From NCBI GenBank assembly GCA_022539475.1, contig VCMS01000202.1, forward strand, positions 36,457 through 100,456: a DNA stretch of 64,000 nt. The letters are read 5' to 3'. This DNA is from Gracilaria domingensis (lineage: Eukaryota > Rhodophyta > Florideophyceae > Gracilariales > Gracilariaceae). Below are positions 13,323-64,000 of the stretch, in pieces (positions within the stretch are counted from its first letter, which is position 1; each line of letters opens with the position of its first letter). The position numbers and the translations under genes are program-made. The notes below the pieces were generated by a model, which worked only from the letters and a program-made list of their open reading frames with translations, ran no database searches and was not told where the DNA came from.

Positions 13323-14145
13323 CAGTGCAATGCCCTCTCGGGGATGCCCACTGCTACGGGGTTTCGGCGGTAACGCCCTCCATGGAGGTGGTGCATTGGT
13401 GTTCTGGCCCCATTTCAGGGCATGCCTGTGAAGGGAAGGTTTTCGAACACGTGTAGTGCAATGGCCGCTTGGCGGATATAGTTCGGCTAATTGTAGTAGT
13501 TTCCCACTTGTATGGTTATGGCCGGCATCGCCGGATAGCTAGATATTTTAACATGATATTTTAAAGTGCCGTATATAAGTGGCGGCACTTGCCGCCACTG
13601 TACGGGAAGTAAACTTCAAGGAGGCTTCTGGCTCTGACTTTTTTGCCGCTTGCGAACGGTCTTCGTCCATAAGCGGGCGAACAGCCGCAACCCCGCGCTA
13701 GTCATCCGACCTCTACTAGTGAAGAGTCCTAGATCGTCGTTACGGCATTTTATCTATTGTTTTACTGTTATTATTTCCCTCATACGACTCTTGTCACTCT
13801 GCTCTGTTATACAGGTTTGGCCCACATTTTCTGGGAATATTTCCGGATCTCGCGAGTCAGTGCACTGCTGCGCGGCTCGTATGTTGTCCGTTTTGCCCAA
13901 CACCGTTGGGCTGGATATCCCTACTCGCTGTGGCACGCCGGAACATCCCGATACCTACGCCGATTTTTCCCCTTTACCTCCGACTGCACGCTCACATCGG
14001 GGCCGCCCGGACTTACACCCGGCATCGCGCTGGCCCTATCGGATGGTTTGACTGCTGCATCTACCTCTATAGAGAGCAGGTCTCGAACACCCTGTCGGTG
14101 CGCTTTCCGCGACGCGGCTCTTGTTTGCTCACTTGTGGGATTGCA
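13321..14145 (+). repeat. gypsy-1 5' LTR, 825 bp
   Basis: Matches 23428-24177 plus 37797-37870. It begins TG and ends CA. A TATA box (GTATATAAG, about 13571-13579) is followed directly by a hairpin with 9-bp arms at 13579-13598, which would form at the start of the transcript. In the 3' copy one hairpin base differs. Confidence 0.9.
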
Positions 14146-23431: not shown

Positions 23432-24177
23432 GTGCAATGCCCTCTCGGGGATGCCCACTGCTACGGGGTTTCGGCGGTAACGCCCTCCATGGAGGTGGTG
23501 CATTGGTACTCCGGCCCCATTTCAGGGTATGCCTGTGAAGGGTAGGTTTTCGAACACGCGTGGTGCAATGACCGCCTGGCGGATATAGTTTGGCAAGTAG
23601 TAGTAGTTTCCTAGGTGTGTGGTTATGGCCGGCATCGCCAGATAGCTAGATAGTTTTACTTGATATTTTCAAGTGCCGTATATAAGTGGCGTCACTTGCC
23701 GCCACTGTACGGGAAGTAAACCTCAAGGAGGCTTCTGGCTTTGACTTTTTTGCCGCTTGCGCGCGTTCTTCGTCTCTAACCGGACAAACCGCCGCACCCC
23801 TGGGCTAGTCATCCGACCTCTACTAGTGAAGAGTCACAGACCGTCGTAACGGCATCTTATCTATTGTTTTATTGTTATTATTTCTGTCATACGGCTCTTG
23901 TCACTCTGCCCTGTAATACAGGTTTGGACCACATTTTCTAGGATTATTTCCGAATCTCGCGAGTCAGTGCACCGCTGCGCGCCTCGTTTTTTGTCCGTTT
24001 TGCCCAAGACCGTTGGCCTGGATATCCCAACTGGCTGTGGCACCCCGGAATATCCGCATACCTACGCCAAGTTTTCCCCTTTACCTCCGACTGCACGCCC
24101 AGATCGCGGCCACCCGGACGTATACCCGGCATCGCGTTGGCTATATCGAAGGGTTCCACCACTGTCCCTACCCCTAT
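23428..24177 (+). repeat. gypsy-1 3' LTR, first 750 bp
   Basis: Collinear with 13321-14070 of the 5' LTR. It stops abruptly at 24177, where the TIR of the inserted element begins. The missing 74 bp are at 37797-37870. Confidence 0.92.
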
Positions 24178-24199
24178 CGTCTGTGTTTCCGGGATGCTA
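24178..24199 (+). repeat. Left terminal inverted repeat of the 13.6-kb element
   Basis: 22 bp, the first 15 perfectly matched in inverse orientation at 37780-37794. Subterminal repeats of CCATCGGTCC follow at 24431-24466, a typical feature of CACTA-group ends. Confidence 0.88.
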
Positions 24200-24555
24200 G
24201 TTTACAGTCCAAAAATGGCAGAAAAAAAATGCTAGTATTTCATATGTTAAATTGCGATTAGTGGAAGTTTGAAGTGGAAGAAAAACTAGAGTAAACTCCA
24301 GATTCTGCAGTATGGTTTGAATGGAATACTAGGCTTGACTTTCAAACTACGAGCTATTTCTAAGAAATATGAAAGTTGCTAGAATCTTAGAACTAACTTC
24401 CATTTCTGCTAGTTCACTAGTACTACCGGTCCATCGGTCCAAAAGAGCCATCGGTCCGAAAGCACGGTGGAAGTTCCATCCTAGCAGAAATGAATGTTAT
24501 TGATGCAGTATTGCAGGTTCATGCAAGGTATAGCACCACATGAAAACAGGTCCAA
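24200..24555. other. Left subterminal region
   Basis: Non-coding. It contains the repeated decamer CCATCGGTCC (two perfect copies at 24431-24466, further partial CGGTCC words near 24425 and 24555), which may be transposase binding sites. Confidence 0.4.
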
Positions 24556-24559
24556 ACCG

Positions 24560-26060
24560 GTCATCGTACACATCTCCACCCTACTTCCCACCCCCGAAAA
24601 TCCATTCTGACATCACCAAAGAAGCCCTGTATCATTTGGAAGACATTTACGCATCGAAACTCACCGAATAGATACCCTGAAAATGCTCTCGTTGCCCTCA
24701 ATGTAGACATCTCCTTGGTTAGTTTTCTGTTGCCTAGTCTCTTCGTCCATCCCAACATGGAAATAAACACACTTACCTCAACATTCTTCGCCATCTTCAT
24801 CTCCCTAACTCCCTCGAAAACATCTCAACTGCACAATTTCCAGCACCGCCACCGATCCATTGCCATCCAACGCACCTGCACATGCACAAACACAAGCTAG
24901 TCAAATACTCCGTTAGATACTTTTCCATCTTCGAAACTTTCCAAAATGCACACTTATCTACTTACCATGTGTCCCTACCTCACCAATAGCCTCGAAAACA
25001 CGAATCAAACTGTCCCGAAAATCCTGCACATACACATAAAACAGTAACCAGTTAGCATTCTTATCAGAACTCGAACAAAAAACATCTCGTACTTACCCCG
25101 ACGCGTACCTTGCCATCCACACCGAACTCTGACGAACAAGAATTTGGAGTAATTGCAAAGAAGGATTACCTGGAAGGCCTCCGTTGAGGTAATCATTCTT
25201 TCCATGACCCCAAACTCTTGTTCGTCAGAGTTCAGGGTCATTAGCATGATTCCTCTAGAAACCAAACCACCCAGCCACATCGTAACCATTCTCCCTTATC
25301 CACTTCACCTCAAAAGACACGTTACACATAGGAAACGAAGTAAACCACGGCCTTCCGCCCCATCCCCATTCCACTTCCAATCCAAAGATCCCGCACGCTA
25401 TAACTCCATGAACCTATCGCGCTCATTCTCGCAAACAGCCCCCGCCGCGCAGTCACATATCCCGTTAGCTAACTCTTCGCTCTTCGAAACATTCTCAAAT
25501 GAACACTCATCTACTTACCATGTGTCCCCTACCTCACCAATACCCTCGACAACACGCATCAAACTGTCTCAAAAGCCCTACGCATACGCATACAACATTA
25601 TCCAGTTAGCATTCACATCAAAAGTCGAACAAAAAGCTTCTCAAACTTACCCATAGTCCCCCGCCCAAGACATTCACGCTAACCTGCTTCCAAATCCTCT
25701 CCGTGCGTCTCGCAAAATCACGTAACGTTCCGCAGTTAGACTTCGCCAACACCATCAGCATCAAAAGGTCTCACTTACATTGAACCCATTCAGTACGCAT
25801 CCCAAACATAAAAAACCTGAACTACTCCGGTTCCAATCCAAAGATTCCGCACGCTGCAGCTTCATGAACCTGTCGCGCTCATTCTCGCACACAGCCGCCG
25901 CCGCGCAAAAACACTGGTCAGAGTCGCGCATATTCGCCACATCAAACATTTACGCCTCGACTTACCTGTTTCGCACGTTTCACATCCCAGGACAGGACTC
26001 TGAGAGGCAACGCCACTGAAGCTCACAGAAGAAGAACTTCAATCGCAGCCACACTGTACT
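24560..26060 (-). CDS. Multi-exon gene of short exons, with tandem duplication
   Basis: Seven minus-strand GTAAGT donors occur (plus-strand ACTTAC at 24771, 24960, 25091, 25513, 25646, 25773 and 25960). Several predicted exons are bounded by good acceptors: 24966-25023 (58 nt) has a GCTAAC branch point 25-30 nt upstream and a GTGCAG acceptor. A near-duplicate exon is 25519-25577 (59 nt) with the same branch point and donor. Another candidate exon is about 24777-24876, and the last exon begins after TTTTCAG near 24673. The unit of about 550 bp is duplicated (a repeated GCGCTCATTCTCGCA word at about 25418 and 25876). The product is not assembled with confidence and no domain is recognised. It is divergent from the transposase gene. 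Confidence 0.45.
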
Positions 26061-26317
26061 TCAATCATTGCCGGCCGCGTAATGCGCCGTCCGCGAAAAT
26101 TTTTGAAAGTTGTGTTCAGAAAAGTTCGAAATCCTCCCCACACTGAAACATGCAGGAAAGGTACGTAAACGATCACGTGCACGGTGGAGTTGGTGGCATA
26201 TAAACACACTTTATACTCTCCCCTGCAGGGTGCTCCAAGATTCTGCGCCGCACCATCACCACCGACCTCCCTCTGCAAGCAACTTCCCTCACTACTTTCA
26301 TACCCTCTCACCCAGCC

Positions 26318-29300
26318 ATGCACAACTGTTGTTTCCCCCGCTGCTCATTCCATACACAGTCCCTCGCCTCTCTCGCCCAGCATCAGAAGCGATGCAGACA
26401 CAGGAATGACCCAAACCCGTTTCTCACCCCAACACCTCATCGAGGATCCCACTTCCCTCCCTGAACCAAACGCCGCAGACTCAACAACATCGAACCCCCT
26501 TCCTTCCCCCCCTCTAACCGCCCGTCCGATAACGTAGCACTCGCAGACGACGACCCTTATCTCCAGGAACAGCTTGCGCTCTCCCTACGCTCATCCGACG
26601 CAGCACAGATACTCAGCCCGCATCACCAACTCGCCTCCCAGTCCCCTTCCACAGGCTCAGGTAACGCCTTCTCCCCCTCTCCACCCTCACAGAAAGACCA
26701 CATCCATAACCTCGTCACCTACATATCCTCCATCGCCACAAAACTCGGAAAGCGTTCTGCTGACGAGCTCATCAACATTCTCAAGCAATCCACCTTTCCC
26801 TCTTCCCTCTTCCAGACCTCCATCACTTCCGCTGCCGAATGTCTGAAACTGCACTCCAAAATCTTCGAAGAAACAGTCAGCTCCATTGGGTTCACCTCAA
26901 CCATCATCCATGACAAAAACCATAACTTCTCCGCCACCCTCTACCTCAGGGACCCCGTTCAGGTTCTCCTACAACAACTTCGTCTCGCATCCCACAGCAA
27001 CTCCTTCTTTCATCCAGTCAAACAAGCTTCGAGAACAGGAACTACCGCAATCGCACACCCTATGGCTTCGGAACTCGGCCACCATGTCGTCCCGACTATC
27101 AAGAGGCATATCATGCATTCTCCGGACCCCGACGTCATCTGGCACGATCCCAGTATCACCGGCACAAACTCGTTCGTCGGCCTCGTTCAACTATATTCAG
27201 ACAAGTCTTCCACCTCTTTGAAAAGTTCTTCTGTTACGTCGTATCCTCTTCACGTCACCCTCCTCAATTTCAATGACTCCTTCCGCAGAAAGTGCATCAC
27301 GCAGAACTACACACTCGTCGGATACATACCCACATCCTTCACCTCCGACTCGTCCTCCACTGACACAGATTCCTTGGAAGTCGCTCCCTCAACCCCCAGC
27401 GTGACCCGCATTGTGCGCATGCAGCTCGTCCAGAAGTCCCTAGAAACCATCCTCAAACCTCTGTATCATATCGGTATGAAGGGTTTTCCCTTCCGCGACG
27501 CCAAAGGAGTCCTTCGTCAATGCCATCCAGTCATCTCCAACTACAGCGCTGACATCCCCGAAGCCAAGGACATTCTCGCAGTACTTCATGGCACAAATCC
27601 AAGCAAACCCTGCCACCGGTGTCTCCTCCCTCGTTCAAAACTCAACCTCTACCAACCTACTCTCACAGAGCGAACCCTCTCACACACTTTGCAAACCAGA
27701 AAAAGACATGATGACCTACTCCTCGAGGCAAATTCTGCTCTCCTCTCCCATAGACCACGGGTTGCAAGGAACCTCAAAGAAGAAGCTGCAGAACTTCTCC
27801 ACTCCACCTCTCTCTCTCCATACAAGTCCTTTCTGGAATCTTACCCTCTTCTCAACATCTCTTCACTGCTCACTCCTTATTCAATCTTCTCCTTCGAGCC
27901 CCTTCACAACTTTCACCTTGGCATCTCTAAACTCATCAAACTCGCCACAATCGAACGCCTGAAGTCCGATTCTCTTCACACTTCCGTGGGCTTCAATGGA
28001 TCCTCCAGGTCGTTTCGGTCCATCAGAACATCTATTCTTACTCACGCGAACTCCATCCTAGCTGACATCGAACGCTCGTTTCCGGCTCCAGGGCTTCATA
28101 TTGATTTCTCAACATCTGAAAAGGGTAAGTCTCTCAACGGCTTCTTCACCACTGACGGAATCAGAGGCATACTAGAAGCAAAGAACTATCGCGCCCTCGA
28201 CATGGTCTTCCCCTTCATCGGTGCATTCTTCGACCGTTGCTGCGGTGAAGTATCTCCCGCCCCAATAACCACCATTTTCACCTCTTACGTCGATCTCGTC
28301 AATAACGTTCTTCACTACCACACTGCCCCAGAATGGACTGATGATCGCTTACGCTCTTTGGAGACTCTCATCAAGAACTTCAAGACTCAAACTGTCTCAG
28401 TTTTGGGTCCATACCAGGCCTCCAACTTTCGTACTCTCAAATTCCATCTCCTGGATCACATCATTCCAGACATCCGTCGATACGGAGGCCTCCATTTCGG
28501 TGATGCAGGTGTGTACGAGCACGCGCATCTCCTCTTCAAGAACCACTACCGCCGTACCTCTCGCAGAAAATCAACTGCGCATAAGGAAACAGTGGACTCA
28601 ATCCAAGAGTCGCAGGATTTCTTACACTCCATCTCGGTAAGGAAACACTTCTCCATGTCTACCAACTCGGCAAGTCGTTTGTCGCAGCGGTGTCCCTCCA
28701 TGGTTCGTGATGGTAGTTCATTCTCCCTCTTCGACATCATCACGGCCGACAAGTATCTACGGTCCCATCCAAACGTCCCGTCATCTGCTCTCACAGATTT
28801 GTTCTCCAAAACTACATTGCAGTTCATCAACCAAATCTCTCGCGACGCCCTCTCTTCCTTCCGTACCCTAAGCTTAGAAACTCTTCAACCGTTGGACAAC
28901 CCCCATGACATCAAAATCACCGTCGTTAACTCCGCTTACATTGTTTCTGGATTCTGCCCCTCGCTGGATGACTACGATCGTCACTTTCAATGCATTAGAC
29001 TGCGAGAGCCGGAGGTCTCTTTGTGTGAACGTATTTTTGCAACCACTTCTTTCGGCCCTTCCAAGTCCTCAAAATTCTCTACCGTCCTGGTTAATGGAAC
29101 TCCTCCTCCCGGTTGTGACTTCCCGACCGCATGGGTACGCAAAGTCTTTGCCCTGGTTCGCTTTAGCAGATGGAACCAAAGCAATTCCGATTCAGAATTT
29201 GCCTTTGTTCGCTTCTTCGAGGTAACGGAGCCGTTGGATAACATTGACGAATCCTTGAACTGCATTTCCCTGCGCTGGGCCACGGATGACAAGGAAGATC

Positions 29301-29536
29301 ACACATTGCAAACCTCCAATTCTCTAAAACGGTCAACAACTGCATCTGTATCCCCATGGTTCGGTCTCGTCCCATTCTCTTCGATCAAAGGCTCGGTACA
29401 CATCCTCCGACAAAACTATCCCGCACGCCCCTTTTTCCCTCCATTGCACTGGAAGTTCCACCGATTCTACATTAACAGATTCTATCGCAATCCCCGAGCT
29501 CGTTTACACTACCATCCAATCACCAAACTTTCGTAA
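26318..29536 (+). CDS. Plavaka-like (CACTA/EnSpm-group) transposase, one in-frame TGA
   Basis: The frame from the ATG at 26318 spans 1072 codons with a single TGA near 26468. The N-terminus is a zinc finger, CFPRC followed by HQKRC, as in Plavaka-type transposases. A likely nuclear signal (TKRRRL) follows the TGA. The RNase-H-fold core shows VQLYSDKS with the first catalytic Asp, then the paired SADIPEAKDIL and CHRCLL segment typical of this group, FEPLHNFHLGISK, and a C-terminal GVYEHAHLLFKNHYRR that may supply the Glu. It would cut and join the element ends. TGA probably arose from CGA (Arg) at a CpG, so the ancestor was intact. Superfamily is from motif memory; the Tnp2-type CACTA relatives are the alternative. 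Confidence 0.75.
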
Positions 29537-29552
29537 CGTAAACCATAATGCA

Positions 29553-32390
29553 TTAGTGACGTTCTATCCAATTCTCCTCATGTAATCCTTCTTGCACAGA
29601 CCTTTCCCTCACATCCCTCTCTGCAGTTATGTCGTAGAACATACGGTCTCCCCGACTGCAGCATCCAACATAGCAATCCAGTACAGCTCCGAGCTTCTCA
29701 GAGATCTCTCCCATAAACACATCTTCTCGGACAGCAAGGTACATTTTCCTTTTCGACGGAATCCAGTAAACCACAGTGCCCACCCGGTCATCATTTCCAT
29801 GCCGCGCATCTTCAGCATTCGATGGGCCATTTCTGAACTCTGTTGGATAACTCTGCTGCATGCGGACCCTCACGGTCTTCAGTATACTTTCAAGTGCCAG
29901 TGGTAGATATTTCCCGAACAAGTCGGAGAACAACACTTGTCTCTTACTACCTCTCCCTCGTTCAGACTCTGTCGCGCGAACAACGGACGCTATCCAGGCA
30001 TCAAGACGTGCCAGATGCATAATTGTTCCATCCACTGGATCCCTCTCTTCGGTATTCCTCGAACTTGTTTGTAAAACGTCGTAGCCCATGAACTCAAGCA
30101 GCACCTCCAAGCTCAGGCTGTTCCGAAAAAGCAAGTCACATGGTTCATCTTCGGTTGCATGATATGGGTTAAAGCCCGAGAAACATATATCTTCTACCTT
30201 CTGAGTTCTCCACGACGACAGAATCTCACATCCATTTGCATCTTTGGGTAGGAGTTTTTCACGTACCTCTCTGGTTTGTATTTCATACTTGTTCTGCTTC
30301 CTTTCATCATTTTTTATCGGGGTCCTTACAAGCATGTCGTAACCTTGTCCCATCAATAATTTCTCCTTCGCATGGCGTTTTCGAACACCTATTGCGTCAC
30401 TTAAAGCCTGTTTCAACCTTCTGCGCAAACAAATGTCGTGCGTTAACTGTTTCACACAGTCATCTTCCATTTTCATTCCTCGGATAGATTCCCAACGTGG
30501 CTTCATTACCTCCGTCTCCACAATTTGCATCAACAAATGGTCGCCTTCACCACGTACGGATGGCGTGTACGCCCTCATCTCCATGGCAAGATCCATTGGG
30601 CACCGTGGCACTATCTCCTTCCCATCAACAACCAGCACACTGTCGTCTTTCTCAGGTCCAACTGTCTCACTTCGGTTGCCCCAGTTCCTTGCCGGTATAC
30701 TCATCTCGAAGCATAGCTCTCTTGTCTCGTCTTTGGCGTATTGAAGTATGGAGTCATAGACGGTCTTCGCAACACCAACAAACTCGTCGTTCACGTCAAT
30801 GTTGTACCGCTTCCTGCTCTTGTTACTGTCACGTTCGTTCTTTTTCCCTCCACGTCTGAGAGCCTCTCTCAAAGAGTGTATGAGAACCTCTTGTTCTCTG
30901 ACCTTAACCTCCAGTTGCTCTATGTTCTTCTGAGCAAGTCGTACGCTCATTTTCAGACTTTGCTTGTCCTCTATTGTACGATACAGATCTCCCTTCAGTT
31001 TCCCGATCTTTTCCAAAAGCTCGTATTGCGGAGTAAGGGATTCATCTTCATCTTCTTCCATTGCACCATGCAGGGAAAAGCTCCGTGACAAAGCACCACG
31101 ATCAACATCTTTATCGTTCCATACTTCTCTACGGGCGTTTGCTATGACAGGTTGCCGATCGTTCCCCACCCGTCTATTCTCATTTCCATGGTTCGTCCTT
31201 CTTCTGACCTGATTGAACCTGTTTCTCTGTGACTCACCTGTGACTGGTGTTGGTTGTATCTCGTCTTCGTCTTCGTCTTCCTTGTGTCTGGACCCAATAT
31301 GAGGGACGGAATCATGCCTGCCTTCGATGGGAGCCATATGCGTTGCATTTCCGGCGTCCACGTTATCGTTAGCCTCCACGTTATCCTTGTCCTCGACGTC
31401 ACTTGGGATATCTACTGCGTCCGTGGACTCCCGCTCCTTTCTTCTACTGCCTTTCTTGGCACGAGAGACACCCTCATTCATTTTCTCGTTCCTTTTCACT
31501 TTTCTCGGACTGTACCCAACAGAGCGGGATTCAATGACATGGAACCCAAGCGACTTCTTTTCTACAAGCAGGTATGGCAGCAACATCTGCTCACCATCAC
31601 CAAAGCCTAAGGTTGAGGCAAAGAAATCCCATCCCTTACAAATCGTTTGCACTGCATGTGCCATCCGTCTCCCGTGCGTCTCATTCGAAGCTATGTAGCC
31701 GTCGACGAACTGCACAGCTCTATGGGTTCCCTTCCCGGTCCTTCCTCTCTTCGCCGCTGGGAGATTTCTCTCCGAAGTTATATGCTTCACGAAAGAGAGA
31801 TAGAGTAACTGCTGAAAACGAGTGGGAGGCCCAATCCTGAACGTAGTTCTCTTCGTCTGCTTACTGCCTGGACCATGTCGTTTGAAAAGGTCATTCCAGA
31901 AAGCCCGTTCTATGAACGAGTTACCGTTGTCGACATCCTTTTCAAGACTCCAGGTAAACAAATCTCTCACGCGCCGATCAGAATTCTCGTCGTCTAGATC
32001 AGTGATACGCGTATATTTGTAGACCCTGCTCAGAAAACGCACGTCCAGACAGATCTTCGTGAGTTCTTTTGCGGAGTCGTTTTGGAAAGGACCCTTGACC
32101 GCAGTGGTGATGAACTCTCGTGCACATGCCAGGTGTTCACGGTTTGATACAGCGTATTCCACAACTTCCGTGTACCCAACTTCACGCGGATTACCAGTAC
32201 CACTTCTTGAAGCGGCATACGCATCTCGCAACTCAATGAACAACCCCCAACATTTCAAGAAACGCGTTGCCATGCTGGCTGAATCGAACGACGCGCTAGA
32301 GGATGCGCTAGAGGATACCGTGCCGTGGTTCTCATCGGCCAGCATACTCTGCTTAAGAGTCCGAGGAGCGTCATTTCCGGTGGACGGCAT
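29553..32390 (-). CDS. Large coiled-coil protein, unknown function (about 945 aa)
   Basis: An intact ORF. I prefer the ATG at 32388-32390 (MPSTGND); the frame is open upstream to 32507. It has a folded-looking N-terminal region (to about residue 300), a Lys/Arg-rich then acidic disordered middle, a coiled coil (YELLEKIGKLKGDLYRTIEDK onward, around residues 470-530), and a C-terminal domain rich in Val, Glu and Arg. No signal peptide, membrane helix or known catalytic motif is seen. It converges with the transposase gene, with only 16 bases between their stops, and is divergent from the dioxygenase gene across the 76-bp palindrome. I recognise no family. It may be an accessory transposition protein or cargo. 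Confidence 0.75.
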   Translation of the reverse strand: MPSTGNDAPRTLKQSMLADENHGTVSSSASSSASFDSASMATRFLKCWGLFIELRDAYAASRSGTGNPREVGYTEVVEYAVSNREHLACAREFITTAVKGPFQNDSAKELTKICLDVRFLSRVYKYTRITDLDDENSDRRVRDLFTWSLEKDVDNGNSFIERAFWNDLFKRHGPGSKQTKRTTFRIGPPTRFQQLLYLSFVKHITSERNLPAAKRGRTGKGTHRAVQFVDGYIASNETHGRRMAHAVQTICKGWDFFASTLGFGDGEQMLLPYLLVEKKSLGFHVIESRSVGYSPRKVKRNEKMNEGVSRAKKGSRRKERESTDAVDIPSDVEDKDNVEANDNVDAGNATHMAPIEGRHDSVPHIGSRHKEDEDEDEIQPTPVTGESQRNRFNQVRRRTNHGNENRRVGNDRQPVIANARREVWNDKDVDRGALSRSFSLHGAMEEDEDESLTPQYELLEKIGKLKGDLYRTIEDKQSLKMSVRLAQKNIEQLEVKVREQEVLIHSLREALRRGGKKNERDSNKSRKRYNIDVNDEFVGVAKTVYDSILQYAKDETRELCFEMSIPARNWGNRSETVGPEKDDSVLVVDGKEIVPRCPMDLAMEMRAYTPSVRGEGDHLLMQIVETEVMKPRWESIRGMKMEDDCVKQLTHDICLRRRLKQALSDAIGVRKRHAKEKLLMGQGYDMLVRTPIKNDERKQNKYEIQTREVREKLLPKDANGCEILSSWRTQKVEDICFSGFNPYHATEDEPCDLLFRNSLSLEVLLEFMGYDVLQTSSRNTEERDPVDGTIMHLARLDAWIASVVRATESERGRGSKRQVLFSDLFGKYLPLALESILKTVRVRMQQSYPTEFRNGPSNAEDARHGNDDRVGTVVYWIPSKRKMYLAVREDVFMGEISEKLGAVLDCYVGCCSRGDRMFYDITAERDVRERSVQEGLHEENWIERH

Positions 32391-32507
32391 GTAAAAACTG
32401 GGAATCGGAAAGGACGCGAAGTAAACGAGTATTGTGAAACGGTAGAAGTTTCGGAGATGTTTAAATGGGTGGGAAGCGTCGGAAACGTCGGGAAGCGTCG
32501 GAAACAA

Positions 32508-32978
32508 TGGTGGAGAGCGCGGTTGCGACGGATTACCGAGAACTGAGCGGGTAATGAAATAGAGAGACGAGAGTGGGATCTAAACACATCAAACCGGTGG
32601 GGCACCTCAGTATGTGCAGTGCATTATATGTCTAGTATGTAAAACCAACGTAGAAAACACTGGGTTCGTACATCTTTGAACATCGCCCGAGCGCCGTGTG
32701 GGAACCGCGGTTCGCCGAGTTCATAGCCGAGATCATAGCTATGATCTCGGCTATGAACTCGGCGAACCGCGGTTCCGGCACGGCGCATCTGACGAAACGC
32801 CACGTGTATACCGCCGAAAGGACCCCCCCTGAGGACCCCCCTGGAGGACCCCTTGCTGGCGTTTATGTGGGCAGTGACGTCGAATAAACGGGAGAGCGAT
32901 GGAGACGCGGATGACACTTCGGACACATTGTGTAGCAAGCGTGGAAGACGGAGGGGAAGGGCTTGAGGAGGAGAGACG
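32508..32978. promoter_or_regulatory. Divergent intergenic region
   Basis: It separates the coiled-coil gene (-) and the dioxygenase gene (+), so it should hold both promoters. It contains the 76-bp palindrome and a GGACCCCCC-rich stretch at 32820-32850. No clear TATA box was identified. Confidence 0.4.
32691..32786. repeat. 76-bp perfect palindrome, 96 bp with two mismatches
   Basis: 32701-32738 is exactly complementary to 32739-32776 with no spacer. The flanking 10 bases each side are complementary with two mismatches. Within the arm the words TTCGCCGAGTTCATAGCC and GAGATCATAG are single copy. A palindrome this long with no loop would extrude as a cruciform in DNA. Confidence 0.95.
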
Positions 32979-34436
32979 ATGCGGTGGGAGCGGAGCAGCG
33001 CATTGAGGGCGGCGGCCATCGACGGGGACACAGACTCAGATGGAGTACCAATTGTGGTCTCACAGGCAGAGGACACTGACCCGTTCGATGACACAGTACC
33101 GCAGGTGTTGGCGCCAGGTCTGAAGAAGGCTGAAGAAGTAGCATATGAAGGTGACGATTCGTGGCTAAAGTTGGTGAAGACCTTACCAAGCAAGTGGTCG
33201 ACTGGAGTGGAGAATGTCATTAAATCTGTGTACCCGTGGATGGATGCGATACATCTCCAGCAGCAACACCGAGGCCACTTGTTGGAGCCCAAAGACTTTG
33301 AAAGTGTGCACCATGCAGTCTTTTGGCATGCAGCGTATCATGGCCATAAACTCCTGAACGCGGCAATGGGAGGCATGGAGGTCGACGAGAAGACGTTATG
33401 GGGGGATGCACTGAAGAACGACTCTCTTGCGTATGTCTATTTTGTGAAGAAGAACGTCGAGCTTCGAGACAGAGGTTTCTGTATTCTGGACGGCTTTGCA
33501 TCGGATGGAGAGTTGGTGAAGCTGACAGAGAGTTTGAGCGAGCTCATTGACGGGGATGTTAGTGTGGAATTACTGGACTTCTTCCGAAGGGACTTCGAGA
33601 GGGCTCCAGACCTTAGGATACCAGAGAACCGAATCACATGGATACCGATCATCAACGCAGATGGTGGGAGGTACATGACTACGAGAAGAGGCATAGTGGA
33701 TGACATGGAGGCAGCCGTAGAAAAACATGTGCTTGTGAAGAAGAGAGCTTTACTGGATGCCCGACTGGGACAGATATGTGCTTTAATGGGTTTACAAGAT
33801 AATACGGTGGAAAAGGAGAGGATGTATGCGCCGAAGACGGGGGGGAGGGTGTTATGCACTGCAGTTGGATGCAAGCGGCAGCAGTTACATACGGATTTCC
33901 CGACCTTGGCGAATGAGGATAAGCTGGAAGAAAAGAAGAACCCGGGGTACTTTATGATGGTGTCCGGAAGTGTGTCGTTTCCAATTTGGGTATGTGAAGG
34001 GTCTCATACACACTACGCAGTTACTCCCAAGGCATTTGAAGGTTTGGCACGGGGGATGTTTGTGAGGAAGTTTTTCGTTCCGCCTAAGTCTATATTTATT
34101 GGAAGAGGTGATGTGTTCCATGCAGGCGCTTCAAATAAGGATGGAAGATTCGCCGAGATTCCCTTGTTTCGTTACCACATGTACATGGTACCTGAGAAAT
34201 ATAACCTCCCGGATGCGGTACACCTTAACCAACACTTTCGACCTCAGTTCAAGGAGGATGAAGACCTGGTTAGTATGAAGGAGAAGAGGAAGAATCCAGA
34301 ACCGTCGAATTTGGAGGAGGAGAATGATGAGGTGATAGTAGAGGAAGGGGAAGAACAGTATGAAGAAGATGACGAAGATGAGAATTATGAAGTGGAGGAG
34401 ATTGAAAACGATCTTGAGGATGGCGAAGAGGACTGA
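32979..34436 (+). CDS. 2OG-Fe(II) dioxygenase-like protein (PhyH-like), 485 aa
   Basis: The sequence shows the hallmarks of the double-stranded beta-helix oxygenases: iron ligands HxD at residues 304-306 (LHTDF), a VCEGSH turn like the PhyH PGSH motif, a distal His at 381 (GRGDVFHAG) and an Arg at 398 (FRYHMYM) placed to bind 2-oxoglutarate. The N-terminal 280 residues are family-specific, including a VHHAVFWHAA segment; the C-terminal 60 are extremely acidic. These enzymes oxidise substrates using iron, oxygen and 2-oxoglutarate; the substrate is unknown. A paralogue lies at 61691-63220 with the same motif spacing (H to H 76-77 residues, H to R 17). TET/JBP-type nucleic acid oxidation is conceivable, given the transposon context, but not shown. 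Confidence 0.65.
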   Translation: MRWERSSALRAAAIDGDTDSDGVPIVVSQAEDTDPFDDTVPQVLAPGLKKAEEVAYEGDDSWLKLVKTLPSKWSTGVENVIKSVYPWMDAIHLQQQHRGHLLEPKDFESVHHAVFWHAAYHGHKLLNAAMGGMEVDEKTLWGDALKNDSLAYVYFVKKNVELRDRGFCILDGFASDGELVKLTESLSELIDGDVSVELLDFFRRDFERAPDLRIPENRITWIPIINADGGRYMTTRRGIVDDMEAAVEKHVLVKKRALLDARLGQICALMGLQDNTVEKERMYAPKTGGRVLCTAVGCKRQQLHTDFPTLANEDKLEEKKNPGYFMMVSGSVSFPIWVCEGSHTHYAVTPKAFEGLARGMFVRKFFVPPKSIFIGRGDVFHAGASNKDGRFAEIPLFRYHMYMVPEKYNLPDAVHLNQHFRPQFKEDEDLVSMKEKRKNPEPSNLEEENDEVIVEEGEEQYEEDDEDENYEVEEIENDLEDGEED

Positions 34437-34713
34437 GTGAATATGTGATGAAACTTTGTAGTAATCTATGTGTCGAATATAGTTTCGAAGTAAATGATCT
34501 TGTGAATCGAGAGAAAGTTTAAGAATTGTGGAAGCGACGACTCTACCCAAGATTGAAGGGTAGGATAGGATACCATACCAAACACTTCAATCCTGGAGAG
34601 CGTCATGAGCAAGTGGGAACTATGTTTGTAGAGAAGAGATTCTGTTTAGTTGAAACATGTATCAGTTATGTACTTATGTTCGTATACTACTTGTCTCGCA
34701 CTTGGTGAATACA

Positions 34714-35916
34714 TCAGCCAGAAGGCAGTAGATGTTGTGTCGGGGGTCTAGGGTGCTCACCAATGGCGCACAAGTATCGCTTTGAGTTGATTCTTGGTGC
34801 GTGTTTGACGACTCCGGAGCATACAAGTAGTACAATGAACAAGCTGTTTATGAGGAGGGGCGGGATACCTCTGTACGAACCAAAGGATTCGGGGTCCAAA
34901 GACTCAGAGAGTGTGTGTGCGAAGAAAACTGGGACCACTCTGTTCAGAAAAAGTCTGATAGAAAGCAGGAAATCCTGAAGGGACAAAGCTTTCCGGAACG
35001 AGTTTAGAATACAACGGCAGTACGGATTTAGCCCTCTTCTCCGGTATACCACCCGATTGGAGAGCGGAACTATGTTGTTGAACGTATGTTTTGTAGAGAA
35101 ATAGATCCCAAATATGTTGATGAGAATGGTGAAGAAGCCAAAGAAGAAACCGCCGGGGAAGGAGGAAATACATGCAGTTTTGAGAGAATCCATGACATCG
35201 ATTGGAGGAGGACGGAGCTGATAGGTGACGAAGATAGAGAGGTTGAGGACGATAAGCCCACCGATACCCATGCCGAGGTATTTATTCCTCAGTGCCGAAA
35301 CGGTGCTGGATGTGTGCGACGGAGTCATTGGACCATATGCGAGTCTACCATACCTTGTGGCGTGAAGAGAGAATGCCAATTCAAACAGAATAATGTGAAA
35401 CATAGTTTCGAGCATGCTGGACAGGATGGTGAATCCCAGTTGTGTTTGGCGGGAGGAGCGATCGTAGAGAAGAGCGTGTGTTGTGAGAGGCTTTACAATC
35501 CCATAGAGAGCTCCTATGGTTACTGAAACGAAGATGGAGAATGCCAAGAGAGAGGATAGCGAGAGCATGTTCAGGGGATTATGTGAATAAGACCGAGCCT
35601 CTGACATGTAGTTGGGTAGCTCTGAAAGATTCCCAATTGTGTGGAAGAAGGGAGGATGTTCAAGGATTCGGTCATGAATTGAAACTTCGTGAAGTATGTC
35701 ATAAACATCACTGAGTTCATCCAGCAGTTCGGGGGATAAAAGGGTCTGGACTCCTCGAACCGTGGCTTCCCCGGTGTCAACGTCGTACTTCAGTTGAAGG
35801 CAGTCGTCAAAGGTGATGTATGTCCTATGGGGAAATGCGTTGAGATGGATAGGTATGAGAGCAATTTGGTTGCGAAGCTGTACATGCGATACCTTGTGGG
35901 TGTTTTGGAAGGCCAT
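34714..35916 (-). CDS. Multi-pass membrane protein, 400 aa
   Basis: An intact ORF with its ATG at 35914-35916. The first 125 residues are soluble and include a helical LLDELSDVYDILHEV segment. About five membrane spans follow: LLAFSIFVSVTIGALYGIV, a span around TILSSMLETMFHIIL, IGGLIVLNLSIFV, FFFGFFTILINIFGIYF, and LLINSLFIVLLVCSGVV near the C-terminus. No transporter or receptor motif is recognised. It converges on the dioxygenase gene. A membrane protein as cargo of a DNA transposon is unusual; it may be a captured host gene or an element-specific gene. Confidence 0.7.
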   Translation of the reverse strand: MAFQNTHKVSHVQLRNQIALIPIHLNAFPHRTYITFDDCLQLKYDVDTGEATVRGVQTLLSPELLDELSDVYDILHEVSIHDRILEHPPFFHTIGNLSELPNYMSEARSYSHNPLNMLSLSSLLAFSIFVSVTIGALYGIVKPLTTHALLYDRSSRQTQLGFTILSSMLETMFHIILFELAFSLHATRYGRLAYGPMTPSHTSSTVSALRNKYLGMGIGGLIVLNLSIFVTYQLRPPPIDVMDSLKTACISSFPGGFFFGFFTILINIFGIYFSTKHTFNNIVPLSNRVVYRRRGLNPYCRCILNSFRKALSLQDFLLSIRLFLNRVVPVFFAHTLSESLDPESFGSYRGIPPLLINSLFIVLLVCSGVVKHAPRINSKRYLCAIGEHPRPPTQHLLPSG

Positions 35917-36556
35917 TGTGAGCTCTGCTGCCTGTGAGTAGGTAGGAAAGAGGAGAAGAAATGAAGAAAGAAGGGGCGAGGAGAAGATATATTTATTGAG
36001 AACGAAACGAGCAGATATTACCTATAAAAAGGTGTATCGAAGGAGCTATATCTATGTTTTGTTTCCTTTAAGGCTTGTAAATTTGAAGTGAAGAAGGTGT
36101 TCATAAACGAGTGGCGAACTTAGCTTCTGTGATGGAAAAGATATGAAGAGACGGAGTACATGAAGAGTAAAATGTAGGGCGATGAAGAGGACGGAAGAAT
36201 CATGATATGATGGTAGTGGTAGGATTTCATTTCATATACTACTGGCATGAACCATGTATGAAAAGGGATGCCCTTCTCGCAACGGTTGGGAGAACATGGA
36301 GAATGAGAAGCATAGAGAGTGTTCAAAAGTGAAGAATTGTGCCAGTAAATATGAAAATAATTGCGATGCAGAGGTTGGACGGATATGAGCGGGTGCGGCG
36401 GTACTACAGTATCATGGGACGAAAGCGTCTACCCTTGGTACACCGTGATCGGTTTGCGAAGGAACGATCAGCGAGTTCTGTTCTTTTCGGCTTCCCTGAT
36501 TTCTCTTCTTTCGATATCCCTTTTGCTCTTCTACCAGATCTTCTACCAACGCGACC

Positions 36557-37369
36557 ATGAGCGATGACGATTCGCGTTCGAACATTAGGTGGCCGTGGGA
36601 GTCGAACGAAGGGGTACGGTCGCACAAGAAGTTAAAGAGTGTGTTCGAGGAGGAGGAAAAAAAGGACGAGCTGGACTGGTGGGCCACTGCAGTGCTGCGG
36701 TGTGCCGGAGCGATGGGGACGCGCATGGGAGAGGACTTGGGTTGACTGACGAAGAAGGTGACAGGGTTCGTGGTAAGGGAACTGAGGGGGATGAAAGAGG
36801 AGCAGAAGAAGATGATGAAACGCATTGAGAATCTGGAGGGGAGCTCGAAGGAGGTGAATGGGAGAAAGAAGGGCGGGGTAGGGGGTGTGGAGGGAACGCC
36901 GGTAACTCCGGCGCCGAAGACGAAGATCGTGAACGACGTTGGGGTAGGAGTGTGCATCGGAAGCAAGGACGAGGATGCGAGAGACTTTGTACCGGCGACG
37001 GATAGTTTTGGGGCGGATGAGGTGATGGAGGGAGAATTGGTGAGGAAGAGAGGTCTGAAGAGGAAGGTTGGCGAGAAGAGGCCGATCCAACCGAGGAGTG
37101 TGGGGGTAGAAGAGGATGAAATTCAGCCGAAGGTGGGGAACAAGAAAGGAAAAGGGGATAGTAAGAAGAGGACACGGGTTGGGTTCAGGACTGTTCCGAA
37201 GCCGGTGTGGAAAGGGAGCAGTGTTGTTGGATACGAGGAGAAGTGGAGCTGGGAGGATGTTGTGGAGGATGAGGAGGAAACCATTGAGAATGATGATGGG
37301 AAAGAATTTCGTACGCTATCATTCGCGGATGTGGAGGTAGAGGAAGGAGATGAAGGTGCTTTACTTTGA
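36557..37369 (+). CDS. Charged coiled-coil protein, one in-frame TGA
   Basis: The frame runs from an ATG at 36557 to 37369, 270 codons, with a single TGA at 36743-36745. Downstream of the TGA a coiled coil (VVRELRGMKEEQKKMMKRIENLE) leads to a GTPVTPAPKTK segment, Lys/Arg-rich nuclear-signal-like tracts and an acidic tail. A protein of similar layout with GSPVTPKTK is encoded at 55779-56708. The TGA could be a CGA-to-TGA mutation or an ORF division. The upstream 60-codon piece is also protein-like (RWPWESN, DELDWWATAVL). The role is unknown; nuclear localisation is likely from composition. Confidence 0.5.
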
Positions 37370-37772
37370 TTGAGGTGATACAGTAGTTGCCGGGTTGATG
37401 GAGGTAGAAAAGCGGTGGGGGAATGGATGTGCGCAACTACCATTTCATGAATGTTATACTAGCCAGAGTTAGTTTACATTCATTATTTGTGTTTATTTGC
37501 AATCGACAAGTATGCAAGTGCCGTTGGTAGCTTCCAGATCGAGCGACCACCTAATCCGTCTGAGTATACTAGGTACAAAAACTTTCATATCATGGAGGTG
37601 AACTAGCAATTATGTCCGCTTTCACTCATTCTACAAATTCTGTAGTATTGCTTGAATAAATGAAAGTATGGTATCCAAAAAATTTTTTTTGGCTTGCACA
37701 TAGCCGTACATTCAATTCTTTGCACATTTTTTAACGATTCAATCCACGAAATAGCATTCTAGCCTCTTTACA
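37370..37772. other. Right subterminal region
   Basis: AT-rich non-coding DNA between the last cargo gene and the right TIR. No open frame of note. Confidence 0.4.
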
Positions 37773-37794
37773 TAGCGTTCCGGAAACACAGACG
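37773..37794 (-). repeat. Right terminal inverted repeat of the 13.6-kb element
   Basis: Inverse of 24178-24199; the outer 15 bp are identical. It is followed by the AT duplication (37795-37796) and gypsy-1 LTR sequence. Confidence 0.88.
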
Positions 37795-37796
37795 AT

Positions 37797-58962: not shown

Positions 58963-59589
58963 GGTTAGAACACATGACTTTTCGGTGTTGTAAACCTTTT
59001 AGAGATAGTTAAACATAAAAGTTACTTTATCGAAATGACCTGTTCCTATTACATTACTTATATTGTTCGTCCTTCTGTGGTTCAAATATGCCCCTTTAAA
59101 TCCTACATCCCTTATCACTAATACTTCGCTAAGATTTTGCTAGATAGAAAATGGTCATTCCATATCATTAAAGTGCACGATACTAGTAACGAAACAAGTA
59201 CAAAAATTGTGATATTTCTGAAGAACTAAGCGTTTGCATTACTTGGGGCACCCGTATAAAGTAAGGTAAACCTTTTATGGGTTTCAACCCATAATGGAGG
59301 TTGTTTTACTCTTCTTGATTTCTAAGCTCATGTTAAAGATATTTACAGTTTTCTTTACCCACTTGAACCCGTACATATAATTTATGACTAAATCATCCTT
59401 TCTTTACTTCAAATCGATGCAAAAACTTCTCCTCCTAGTAACGTTTTAAAACAGTACTACAATACCCGTATATGGTCGTTCTTAGACTCTTTGTATACTA
59501 CGAAACACCTTGTGAACATCAATCACATCCTTCTCATTCGTATACCCACACCCATTTGCAAAACGAACCCTTTCGAAAGCTTTCAAAAC
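58963..59589. other. Intergenic, no gene
   Basis: AT-rich. A small inverted repeat ATGGGTTTCAACCCAT lies near 59277-59292. The frame upstream of the HAD gene is open from 59491 but lacks an ATG. Confidence 0.4.
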
Positions 59590-60468
59590 ATGTATAACTC
59601 GGAAGTTAGAGCCCAAGAAGTAACTCCTCAGCAGCTGGCTAACGAAATATTCGAAAATGGCTACGCCGTGATTAGTGATGTTGACGGTACTCTGAAAAGA
59701 GCTGGGGAGAACATTCCTGCCGAAACAGTCAAATGCATGAAGTACATCAACGCACGCGTTGGTTTCGGAATTGCTACTGGGCGAGATATAGAGGATGCCG
59801 AGAGTTTCATGGAGCACCTGTGTGGCTACACTTTTGGCATCTCTGGAAACCAAGGCGCACGGGTGAGATTATCCAATGGTACCGAAATTGATCAGGACCT
59901 TGACAGGGAAGGCTACGAAAGATGTGCAGCCGAACTTGAGAGATTTGCACTCTCCTTAAATGAATCGCACGGACTTCACGAAGAGCGTCAACAAGCAGTG
60001 GTGAGCACTAGAAAAGACAGTGGACTCCCTAACTTCACGTACAATGGACTGTCGAAGTGGAAAACAGAAGTTAACTCCGGTATTTCAAAAGTGTTGACAT
60101 CCTTTCCGAACCTGGTTGCGTACCCTCAAGATGAAAACTGTGACATAGGGGACATTCGTTTCACGAAAAATAGTGGGGCGCTAGCCTTGGTTGAAAACGA
60201 CCCCCAGTTCGACACACATTTAATCGTTGCTTTCGGGAATGCTTCCAATGATGGCCCTCTATATGAAATGGCAACCCTGGCAGTTCATGTGAAGGGAGAA
60301 GACCATCCAGCAGCCGTAACATATCTTGTTGATGGCGTGGAGGACGTGCATGAGACCATCAGAAGGGTGGCAGAGCTGTACGGGTACAGAAAATGCAAGT
60401 GTCAATGGTTTAGAAATGCTCTTGGAATTTGTTTCAAGTGCTACGATGCCTTTAATACTCAGCTATGA
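59590..60468 (+). CDS. HAD-superfamily phosphatase (Cof-like), 292 aa
   Basis: Motif I is SDVDGTL with the nucleophile Asp30 and Asp32; motif II lies in GIATGRD; motif IV is FGNASNDGPL, matching the GDxxND type. The middle part (residues 90-210) would be the cap. Members hydrolyse sugar phosphates and related compounds; the alternating ATG start at 59590 aligns with that of its paralogue. The C-terminus has a Cys-rich tail (CKCQWFRNALGICFKC). Its partner gene 60515-61354 is convergent, with 46 bases between stops. The substrate is not predictable from sequence. Confidence 0.75.
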   Translation: MYNSEVRAQEVTPQQLANEIFENGYAVISDVDGTLKRAGENIPAETVKCMKYINARVGFGIATGRDIEDAESFMEHLCGYTFGISGNQGARVRLSNGTEIDQDLDREGYERCAAELERFALSLNESHGLHEERQQAVVSTRKDSGLPNFTYNGLSKWKTEVNSGISKVLTSFPNLVAYPQDENCDIGDIRFTKNSGALALVENDPQFDTHLIVAFGNASNDGPLYEMATLAVHVKGEDHPAAVTYLVDGVEDVHETIRRVAELYGYRKCKCQWFRNALGICFKCYDAFNTQL

Positions 60469-60514
60469 TATGAGATCTCAGTAATAAAAGTGTCGTATAT
60501 ATCTCAATACCCTT

Positions 60515-61354
60515 TTATGAATCATGGTGGTTTTTATCCTGCTGCTTTTCCTCGTAGCCGTACAACAGAGCCACCAACATAATTGTCGAATGTACATCCT
60601 CCACGCTTTCGAACAGGTTGTGTACTCCACGCGGGATACAATCTTCTTTGACGTGAACGCCGTACACGCCTACCTCATGCAAAGGCCCGTCGCTCAAAGC
60701 ACTTCCGAACGTCACGACGTCATCCGTATCAATAAATCTCGGTTCATTATCCACAAGATTTTCTCCTCCGCTTCCTTTTGTGTATCGCTTGTCCACAATT
60801 TCGCAACTTTTATCGCCGGGATAGATAACAAACGCATCCATCTTCTGCAACAGGTCCCCAATAGCAGAATCCACTTCTTCTTTCCACTGCCACAGTTTGT
60901 TGTACACGAAATTGGGAAGGCCACTATCACTTCTGGTCTCCACGAACCCCTTGTCATCATCATTCACAATACCATGCCTCCTATTCAAATCCCTTGCCAG
61001 GAACAGTAGTCCGTCAACAGTGTGGTCAAGGGTGTGATCATTGAATGCACCCTTAATTTCCCTCTCGTCAGAGAAACGCATGAAAGCTCCATGATTCGCC
61101 GAGACACCAAACTTATAGTCTCCGAGTCCTTCCATTTTCCCCTCCACGTCGCCCACATCACCCCCTGTGACAAGTCCGAAACCAACACGTTCGTCAATGA
61201 ACTTCATACACTTCACAACTTCTTCTGGAATTGACTCTCCTTCTCTTCTCAACGTTCCATCAACGGAACTTAATATACCGTAACCATTGGCATATATGAA
61301 CTTAGACAAGGTATTTGGTGAAATTTCCGCCAAGTCTCTCTGTTCCTCTGCCAT
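60515..61354 (-). CDS. HAD-like paralogue lacking the nucleophile Asp, 279 aa
   Basis: Aligns along its length with the product of 59590-60468 (ANGYGIL, VKCMKFIDERVGFGLVTG, DSGLPNFVYNKLWQWK, VEDVHSTI). Motif I reads SSVDGTL: the nucleophilic Asp is Ser. Motif IV reads FGSALSDGPL, Asn replaced by Ser. The frame is open and clean, so selection may maintain it as a non-catalytic protein. I chose the ATG at 61352-61354 because it matches the paralogue start; ATG at 61375 is an alternative. Confidence 0.7.
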   Translation of the reverse strand: MAEEQRDLAEISPNTLSKFIYANGYGILSSVDGTLRREGESIPEEVVKCMKFIDERVGFGLVTGGDVGDVEGKMEGLGDYKFGVSANHGAFMRFSDEREIKGAFNDHTLDHTVDGLLFLARDLNRRHGIVNDDDKGFVETRSDSGLPNFVYNKLWQWKEEVDSAIGDLLQKMDAFVIYPGDKSCEIVDKRYTKGSGGENLVDNEPRFIDTDDVVTFGSALSDGPLHEVGVYGVHVKEDCIPRGVHNLFESVEDVHSTIMLVALLYGYEEKQQDKNHHDS

Positions 61355-61690
61355 TTTTCCTGATACAGTCACCATACTGCCACAAGTACCGCATAGACAG
61401 GAACTGTATAGACTTCTCAGTTTCACACTTCTCTTAAAAGCAACCTTAAGTGCAGTTTCAGAAATGTTAGGACGCTACATGTTCAATTGCGAATTGACTG
61501 GTGCCACCAATGATGTTAACGATACCGAGCATTTCGCATGTTGCAATTAGACGCAACTGGACCAAAGACGTTTGACATTTGTTCAATTACCAGCCTGCCG
61601 CACCTTTTCTATGTTCATATGTATAGCCTTGTAATAGTATACTACTCTTAATACTCGCAAGACACACATAATTTACTAATCATCTCATTC
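61355..61690. other. Intergenic, no gene
   Basis: Likely contains the promoter of the HAD-like paralogue and the 3' end of the dioxygenase gene. No distinct element was identified. Confidence 0.35.
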
Positions 61691-63220: not shown

Positions 63221-63995
63221 AAATGCAGAACTGCCTGCGTTCTCTGCATTCGCTCCCTCTCCAATGCCACGAACTGAACCTTCATCGACCTTCCTCTCAG
63301 CACATGTTCATTTAGTTGAGACATCAGGTCATCCGGTGTCATGCTGTTCAGAGTAGATCTCATCTGTTGTGTGAAAGTCTTTCTCCGTTTCTTCCTCGGC
63401 GGAGCCCGCTGTTCTTCTTCAGAGCTATCCAGAACTTCTATGGCACCTCGATTTCGGCCGTGCTCAATTTCCCTATAACTCACCTGCGCCCGTTCTCGTG
63501 CACTTCTTCGCGGCTCCCCTTCTTCACTGGCAGATGTTGCAGCAGCAGCAGCGGGAGTCCTCCTCTTCGTCACGGACTGCTTCACTGGTGCGGGGGGCGG
63601 AATTACCTTGAGCATCGTCCGCAATCGATTCTGAACGGAAGTCGTGGCAGTACTAATTGAGTTCGTCCTGCTCCGAACACGCGGCAATGTGTTGAAGTTC
63701 ACAACTTGTCCCAAAGGAACTGATACACAGCTGCGTTGTTGTCTGGGTCTTCAACGTCATCTTCATTCGATGGAGCAGAAAGACTGACTTCGCGTTTCAG
63801 GAACACTTCCATGGACTCTTCCTCGTTCAGTTCATTTCTCACTGCTCTAGCCGCGCGGAACAGAGACACTGCTCTATCATAAAAGAAACCTCGAACCTCC
63901 TCAAAGCTTTTCCATTGCTTTGTCTTCGTCGACTTGCCCTTCAATAGAAACATCTGAAGACAATCAAGAATGAAGGAAAACTCCTCGGCATCCAA
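63193..63995 (-). CDS. Two overlapping frames, unrecognised; possible upstream exons of the dioxygenase gene
   Basis: The frame 63995-63699 encodes a helical N-terminal piece (FSFILDCLQMFLLKG, FFYDRAVSLFRAARAVRN). A second frame from about 63720 to 63193 encodes a Thr/Ala/Ser-rich, then basic (PPRKKRRKTF) and helical piece. The two overlap and differ in frame, as does the dioxygenase frame after it. Either an intron or frameshifts connect them. The first frame is cut by the window end at 64000. No family recognised. Confidence 0.4.
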
Positions 63996-64000
63996 AAACA

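Follow-up and report, generated by a model that had tools for sequence, protein, structure and literature searches.

A shortened Plavaka element and its genes

The window, i.e. the whole 64,000-nucleotide stretch analysed here (bases 36457-100456 of contig C202 of the red alga Gracilaria domingensis), contains at 24178..37794 a DNA transposon of 13,617 bp with exact inverted ends. Copies were searched for in the whole genome (77.9 Mb, 680 contigs), and comparison with them indicates almost certainly that the window copy is a non-autonomous member, shortened by deletions, of a family of giant, cargo-bearing Plavaka cut-and-paste elements of about 20 kb. The fungal host supposed in the preliminary description, which was made from the window alone, is contradicted by the organism itself and by 11 chlorophyll-binding matches in the genome, including one pair on C22 and C61, where element copies are present too.

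In element orientation, the full gene set of the family is as follows: transposase (+), coiled-coil-like gene (-), methylase-SET gene (-), gene for a protein of 1,282 residues (+), gene for a five-span membrane protein (-) and gene for a small charged protein (+). The window copy retains these genes to different extents. The transposase gene (26318..29536, +; 1,072 codons) has a zinc-finger-like CxxxxC...H start and a single premature stop near its N-terminus. The charged, coiled-coil-like gene, in which the coiled coil is putative, is represented by its body only (29553..31505, -), with the N-terminus deleted, and is 96-98% identical to separate open reading frames (ORFs) in the copies on C12, C233 and C61. 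It is followed by a remnant of the methylase-SET gene (31506..32390, -) that covers residues 1-295 at 97% identity to the 1,055-residue protein encoded elsewhere, both catalytic domains being deleted. Next are the C-terminal third (residues ~810-1282) of the 1,282-residue protein, which contains an oxygenase-like domain with an HxD...H...R pattern (33015..34436, +; 95.6% identical to the C140 copy), the unbroken gene for the membrane protein of 400 residues (34714..35916, -) and an interrupted gene for the small charged protein (36557..37369, +), whose frame is longer in the C25, C120 and C233 copies.

Compared to the C12 copy, the window copy lacks ~3.3 kb (C12 7498-10843) and ~3 kb (C12 12284-15314), the latter with a local rearrangement. 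The first deletion joins two genes and thereby creates a 984-residue ORF (29553-32507) composed of the N-terminus of the methylase-SET protein and the body of another gene, with the junction at ~31506. Through the second, the 1,282-residue protein has lost residues 1 to ~810, so that a 485-residue ‘oxygenase’ ORF remains. Of the six gene-like units described previously, the large coiled-coil protein of 984 residues and the standalone oxygenase are thus products of deletion. As a real gene, the former is ruled out by the separate ORFs in C12, C233 and C61 and by the deletion junction. Since the methylase-SET gene is deleted from the window copy, it was invisible in a reading of the window alone.

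Stop-free frames are found elsewhere for the transposase (e.g. C12, C247 and C227), the methylase-SET protein (C12), the 1,282-residue protein (C140, C61 and C434) and the membrane protein (many copies). A complete set of unbroken genes is found in no paired element among the nine examined (see below), as judged from ORF lists and from matches that are split. The five membrane spans proposed previously are borne out by the hydropathy of the unbroken ORF, one of them being borderline. This gene has 105 matches genome-wide, and many diverged copies (about 44-73%) lie away from the main family, so the membrane protein may ride on several element families. An NCBIfam search gave nothing informative.

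Termini, target site and copies in the genome

The 15-bp terminal inverted repeat CGTCTGTGTTTCCGG is perfect at the left (24178..24192, +) and right (37780..37794, -) ends, which are its only exact matches in the window, and imperfect beyond. Genome-wide, it occurs 73 times (30 forward and 43 reverse), whereas a control with the pattern reversed gave 0 and 1 matches, and 12 convergent pairs with a spacing of 13.2-23.9 kb were read from the genome-wide list. The whole-element comparison comprised the window copy and 8 of the 11 other pairs, namely: C12, C25, C61, C96, C120, C140, C233 and C469; the paired elements at C266, C277 and C293 were left out. The matching ends reported in the preliminary description are therefore a recurrent feature of the genome.

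The DNA flanking the window element is a dispersed repeat (40 places scored). When the joined flanks were aligned with element-free relatives of this repeat, all 11 relatives fetched showed a gap of two bases, placed at the junction or no more than a few bases from it; the target duplication is thus 2-bp AT, with its copies at 24176..24177 and 37795..37796, in agreement with the clean insertion described earlier. A further copy of the host repeat, 84% identical, lies in the window at 13871-14070 (C202:50327-50526). Matching 2-bp flanks were found for 4 of the 9 paired elements. The elements at C12 and C233 have the same right flank, different left flanks and no matching 2-bp duplications, which points to recombination between copies or to assembly joins. 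Runs of N are present in 6 of the first 8 elements compared and also in C469. Across the shared parts, identity between copies is mostly 97-99%, with lower stretches in C140 (91%) and C96 (77-98%).

The transposase assigns the element to Plavaka, as had been proposed. PF18759 (Plavaka) matches the window ORF at 3.9e-23 (82.6 bits) and the C12 protein at 5.9e-24 (85.3 bits), well above the cut-off of 26.3. According to the available part of a recent survey, Plavaka transposases are recognized by D, D and E residues with C(2)C and H(3-4)H between the second D and the E (PMC12730594). The window transposase has candidate residues in this order, namely: YSDKS (27194), SADIPEA (27545), CHRC (27611), HLLDH (28445) and VYEHAH (28511). 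Pfam includes a KDZ model; when the C12 transposase was run through hmmscan with a limit of E≤5, Plavaka and one model below its cut-off were returned, and no KDZ model. The element ends read CGTCTGTG..CACAGACG and do not match the published fungal Plavaka termini, TGT..ACA or CATCA..TGATG. Those termini come from fungi only, and the mismatch is likely to reflect a new lineage.

The deleted gene encodes a predicted DNA methylase-SET protein

The methylase-SET ORF is unbroken in C12, where it encodes 1,055 residues. Two catalytic domains are matched above their Pfam cut-offs: N6_N4_Mtase (PF01555) at residues 528-759 (1.3e-14; 55.2 bits, cut-off 26.7) and SET (PF00856) at residues 887-1046 (2.3e-6; 28.4 bits, cut-off 22.4). 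In addition, the S-adenosylmethionine (AdoMet)-binding part (about residues 689-763) matches the solved structures of the bacterial methylases DpnA (3.3e-6), CcrM (0.0012) and MboIIA (0.0041), and a phage DNA-methyltransferase family matches the protein at 1.5e-25. An NCBIfam search gave nothing informative.

A search of a collection of 5.77 billion proteins (7,539 candidates scored) recovered 13 homologues, P0001-P0013, at 24-39% identity. PF01555 is found in all 13, and 7 carry a precomputed SET label. In a scan of six homologues, from which P0002 and P0013 were left out, the SET score also exceeded the cut-off for P0007, P0008 and P0009 and fell short of it for P0012, so that 10 of the 13 are labelled or above the cut-off. 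Residues 1-130 of P0012 look ParB-type (VQDGTHRVSAIRAYY), with no Pfam support. Among viral contigs, one search found no match and another a single weak one, to the AdoMet part; in prokaryote genomes, four weak partial matches were obtained.

All 14 aligned family members contain DPP[Y/F], and 13 contain the AdoMet motif D-x-x-[ASC]GT, for which P0011 reads DTFAGT. The catalytic DPPY precedes the AdoMet motif in the 1,055-residue protein, as in the permuted (beta) N6_N4 type. The accessible part of a study of bdelloid rotifers gives DPPY as the motif of bacterial N6-adenine enzymes and SPPY as that of most N4-cytosine enzymes (PMC8885841); the DPPY motif thus suggests adenine as the predicted target of the DNA methylase. 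Judged from these domain and motif matches, it is very probable that the 1,055-residue protein combines DNA methylase and SET lysine-methyltransferase biochemistry.

An oxygenase-like domain, apparently in two Plavaka families

Using the 485-residue window piece as the query, five homologues were found (P0014-P0018). P0014 (FGB62_128g110; best place contig C128, 99%) and P0015 are named Gracilaria domingensis proteins. P0018, a mosaic without the HxD stretch, was dropped, which left five rows in the alignment. HxD and the distal H, located in GRGD(V/F)xHA, are present in all five aligned domains, including the four homologues at 34-40% identity. The R before YH(M/T/L)Y is present in four of the five, with G in its place in P0014. 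An HxD...H...R pattern is typical of 2-oxoglutarate oxygenases, and the C-terminal domain is likely to be one. Of the PhyH-like oxygenase proposed in the preliminary description, the candidate oxygenase is therefore retained on the strength of this motif, while the kinship with PhyH found no profile or structure match.

The best match of the 1,282-residue protein to solved structures has an E-value of 0.13. For its residues 340-1240, 7,998 candidates were scored, and no homologue reached E≤0.001. TET/JBP had no Pfam match in the scanned proteins; it should be noted that, in the part of the fungal survey available, the PE type of Kojima was recognized only by structure-based methods (PMC12730594). 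A ParB/Srx-like reading of the DG-HR region, which contains an IDGAHR motif, found no support, as there was no ParB Pfam match and no significant match to the N-terminus of P0012.

The P0014-like oxygenase has 84 scored places in the genome at 92-99% identity, including 61694-62965 of the window. In the window it belongs to an abundant second repeat (59491-64000) that runs off the right edge and contains an oxygenase ORF (61691-63220, -) and two HAD-phosphatase-like ORFs. A segment of 2.9 kb around this oxygenase, including part of a HAD-phosphatase-like ORF, recurs at 40 scored places (itself counted) with 95-100% identity. The genome also contains a second set of Plavaka transposases. In 10 of 14 transposase-oxygenase pairs within 25 kb, the two genes share a strand, with the transposase 11.0-13.5 kb upstream of the oxygenase, and the other 4 are arranged otherwise; the window oxygenase is outside these 14 pairs. 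Taken with the main element, this pairing means that two Plavaka families of the genome appear to carry the oxygenase domain.

Linkage and selection of the cargo genes

The preliminary description allowed that the cargo genes had been trapped once. To compare the gene content of other copies, the best matches of each gene were used (44 of 55 for the methylase-SET gene, 36 of 44 for the 1,282-residue protein, 49 of 105 for the membrane protein and 43 of 50 for the transposase), and all counts are therefore lower bounds. At least 34 of the 35 main-family methylase-SET loci have one or more partner genes that lie no farther than 20 kb away and are placed and oriented as expected, namely: the transposase at no fewer than 15 loci, the 1,282-residue gene at 23 or more and the membrane gene at 25 or more. 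Among the matches listed, 67 pairs within 20 kb have the expected relative strand and one does not. A one-off gene capture is ruled out by this conserved order. In the diverged subfamily, the methylase-SET and 1,282-residue genes (both 62-63%) lie side by side at C231.

Selection on the genes was estimated from the proportions of nonsynonymous (pN) and synonymous (pS) differences and from the ratio of the corresponding rates (dN/dS). Between the C12 methylase-SET gene and that of C157, a subfamily copy with 65% identity to it, pN is 0.209 and pS 0.729 over 1,029 codons, giving a dN/dS of 0.09, a rough ratio since dS is near saturation. The silent excess is found in both the methylase region (pN 0.146, pS 0.775) and the SET region (pN 0.172, pS 0.657). 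Similarly, when the DG-HR region of the 1,282-residue protein is compared with a pair of fragments from the subfamily, dN/dS is 0.12 over 219 codons and 0.08 over 202 codons. The two oxygenase ORFs of the window differ by a pN of 0.384 and a pS of 0.811 over 358 codons. Six comparisons between main-family copies that are 97-98% identical gave dN/dS values of 0.76-1.9 from few changes, i.e. about neutral. Constraint between subfamilies together with neutrality among recent copies indicates selection during transposition and decay after insertion. The methylase-SET gene is thus probably kept for the element's own propagation, as judged from these substitution patterns.

The C96 copy (G000:C96:21212-43250) is a mosaic. 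Its N-terminal parts of the methylase (75-94%) and of the 1,282-residue protein (84-97%) resemble the main family, while strong divergence is seen in the SET region (36%), in the oxygenase half (31-35%) and in the coiled-coil-like gene, which suggests that cargo may be exchanged between subfamilies.

Possible functions of the cargo

Judging from its gene content, the element may edit the chromatin marks on which its own silencing depends. The explanation that we favour overall, with rather better than even confidence, is a Plavaka family whose cargo marks the element's own DNA and chromatin in order to stay active. The methylase-SET protein would put N6-methyladenine (6mA) on element DNA and would methylate a histone or other lysine at the element, and the oxygenase would remove or alter a competing mark; together, the two proteins would keep the element chromatin permissive for transcription and transposition. 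We favour such self-marking in view of the association between 6mA and permissive chromatin that is reported for several eukaryotes in the part of the source available (PMC12695648). Taken as a separate claim, a self-marking or anti-silencing purpose of the cargo is finely balanced and leans slightly to the doubtful side. A more specific proposal is put forward tentatively: that a single enzyme writes both 6mA and histone lysine methylation and, with an oxygenase as the eraser, would form a portable active-chromatin programme independent of host marks, with relatives of this enzyme present in other organisms as well.

Several results weigh against this explanation. Neither the window oxygenase ORF nor P0014-P0018 has a Pfam match at E≤1, and the full 1,282-residue protein gives only PRA-CH at 0.2 in the Pfam scan. 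The oxygenase profile matched, among solved structures, antibody chains (E 0.005-1.7) and one autoantigen fragment, which were taken as noise. Matching 2-bp flanks are missing from 5 of the 9 paired elements, and in the 57-68% subfamily, among the matches listed, only 4 of 9 loci have a partner gene. In addition, in two aligned regions (of 8 and 7 copies), the C-to-T rate per site is similar whether the C precedes A, C, G or T, and there is accordingly no sign, in the form of CpG- or CpA-specific decay, of the 5-methylcytosine (5mC) silencing that a TET-like cargo would counter. Overall, C-to-T changes are more numerous than A-to-G changes (72 vs. 23 and 163 vs. 92) and favour no context, and the CpG observed/expected ratio is 0.99 outside the element and 0.89 inside; CpG- or CpA-specific mutation (5mC or similar to repeat-induced point mutation) is unsupported. 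The earlier suggestion was that the cargo could modify nucleic acid or protein against silencing; a version of it based on 5mC removal, the escape role proposed for fungal TET elements, gains no support from the mutation contexts.

Two other roles for the cargo are considered unlikely, to a similar degree. The methylase might tag the element and thereby restrict the transposase to hemimethylated copies that have just been replicated, with the SET domain and the oxygenase as helpers. In bacteria, Dam times Tn10/IS10 transposition via hemimethylated DNA, and a methylase of bacterial or phage type that is co-mobilised with a transposase would suit such timing; the oxygenase and the fused SET domain are left unexplained, even though the latter is under the same constraint as the methylase. 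The cargo might instead write repressive marks that damp the element or its rivals and spare the host. SET enzymes are often repressive, and a methylase-chromodomain fusion of a related type marks transposons for silencing in bdelloid rotifers, as stated in the available part of that study (PMC8885841). However, with tens of near-identical copies in the family, damping can at most be weak, and it is along the transposing lineage, not at settled copies, that selection acted. That host genes were captured between the ends as passengers with no role for the element is highly improbable and looks already refuted: stops and frameshifts in many copies would agree with it, but the genes recur in order in many copies, the subfamily pair stands together at C231, purifying selection is found between subfamilies and is absent among recent copies, and the same oxygenase domain is carried by a second Plavaka family.

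Relation to known systems and significance

The closest counterparts are the fungal PlavakaB and KDZ transposons that bear TET/JBP (PMC12730594, from the part available). PlavakaB similarly joins a Plavaka-type transposase to a cargo enzyme with a proposed action on epigenetic marks, and the 2-bp duplication of the algal element compares with 2 bp for PlavakaA and 2 or 3 bp for PlavakaB. In contrast to the fungal elements, the algal one is red algal, has ends beginning with CGTCTG, gives no TET/JBP match, carries a methylase-SET gene and other genes, and is about 20 kb long. The same survey describes HarbingerS and MuDR elements of Phytophthora with a SET histone methyltransferase, i.e. SET on a DNA transposon as here; these belong to other transposase superfamilies, and the part of the text available does not mention a DNA methylase fused to SET (PMC12730594).

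In bdelloid N4CMT, a permuted N6_N4 methylase of bacterial type is likewise joined to a chromatin module in a eukaryote. As far as the accessible text goes, N4CMT has SPPY (N4-methylcytosine) and a chromodomain reader and is a host gene, whereas the algal protein has DPPY and a SET writer and is transposon cargo (PMC8885841). The giant Plavaka repeats of Amoebidium are intron-poor gene clusters of up to 50 kb beside a Plavaka transposase, with red algal matches reported; in the part of the report available, the cargo named is tyrosine recombinases, and a methylase-SET protein is not named (PMC11244446). Plavaka is also named in a green alga, in a source available in part. In 2018, de Mendoza reportedly described cytosine methyltransferases borne by retrotransposons, which are likewise transposon-encoded DNA methylases but are cytosine enzymes in retrotransposons. 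Chromatin enzymes borne by transposons are thus already known, while the combination of a DNA methylase-SET protein with an oxygenase was not found in the literature searched; nor was a methylase-SET fusion on a transposon, with the limit that coverage was partial and prior publication is possible.

The family adds a red alga to the hosts of giant, cargo-bearing Plavaka elements, and the window illustrates that one shortened transposon copy can conceal a key gene. Host factors are the usual basis for conclusions on how transposons evade or exploit chromatin silencing; in this case, the predicted writers are encoded by the element itself. In eukaryotes, where the function of 6mA is disputed, the methylase-SET protein would allow a connection between 6mA and histone methylation to be tested on a single protein.

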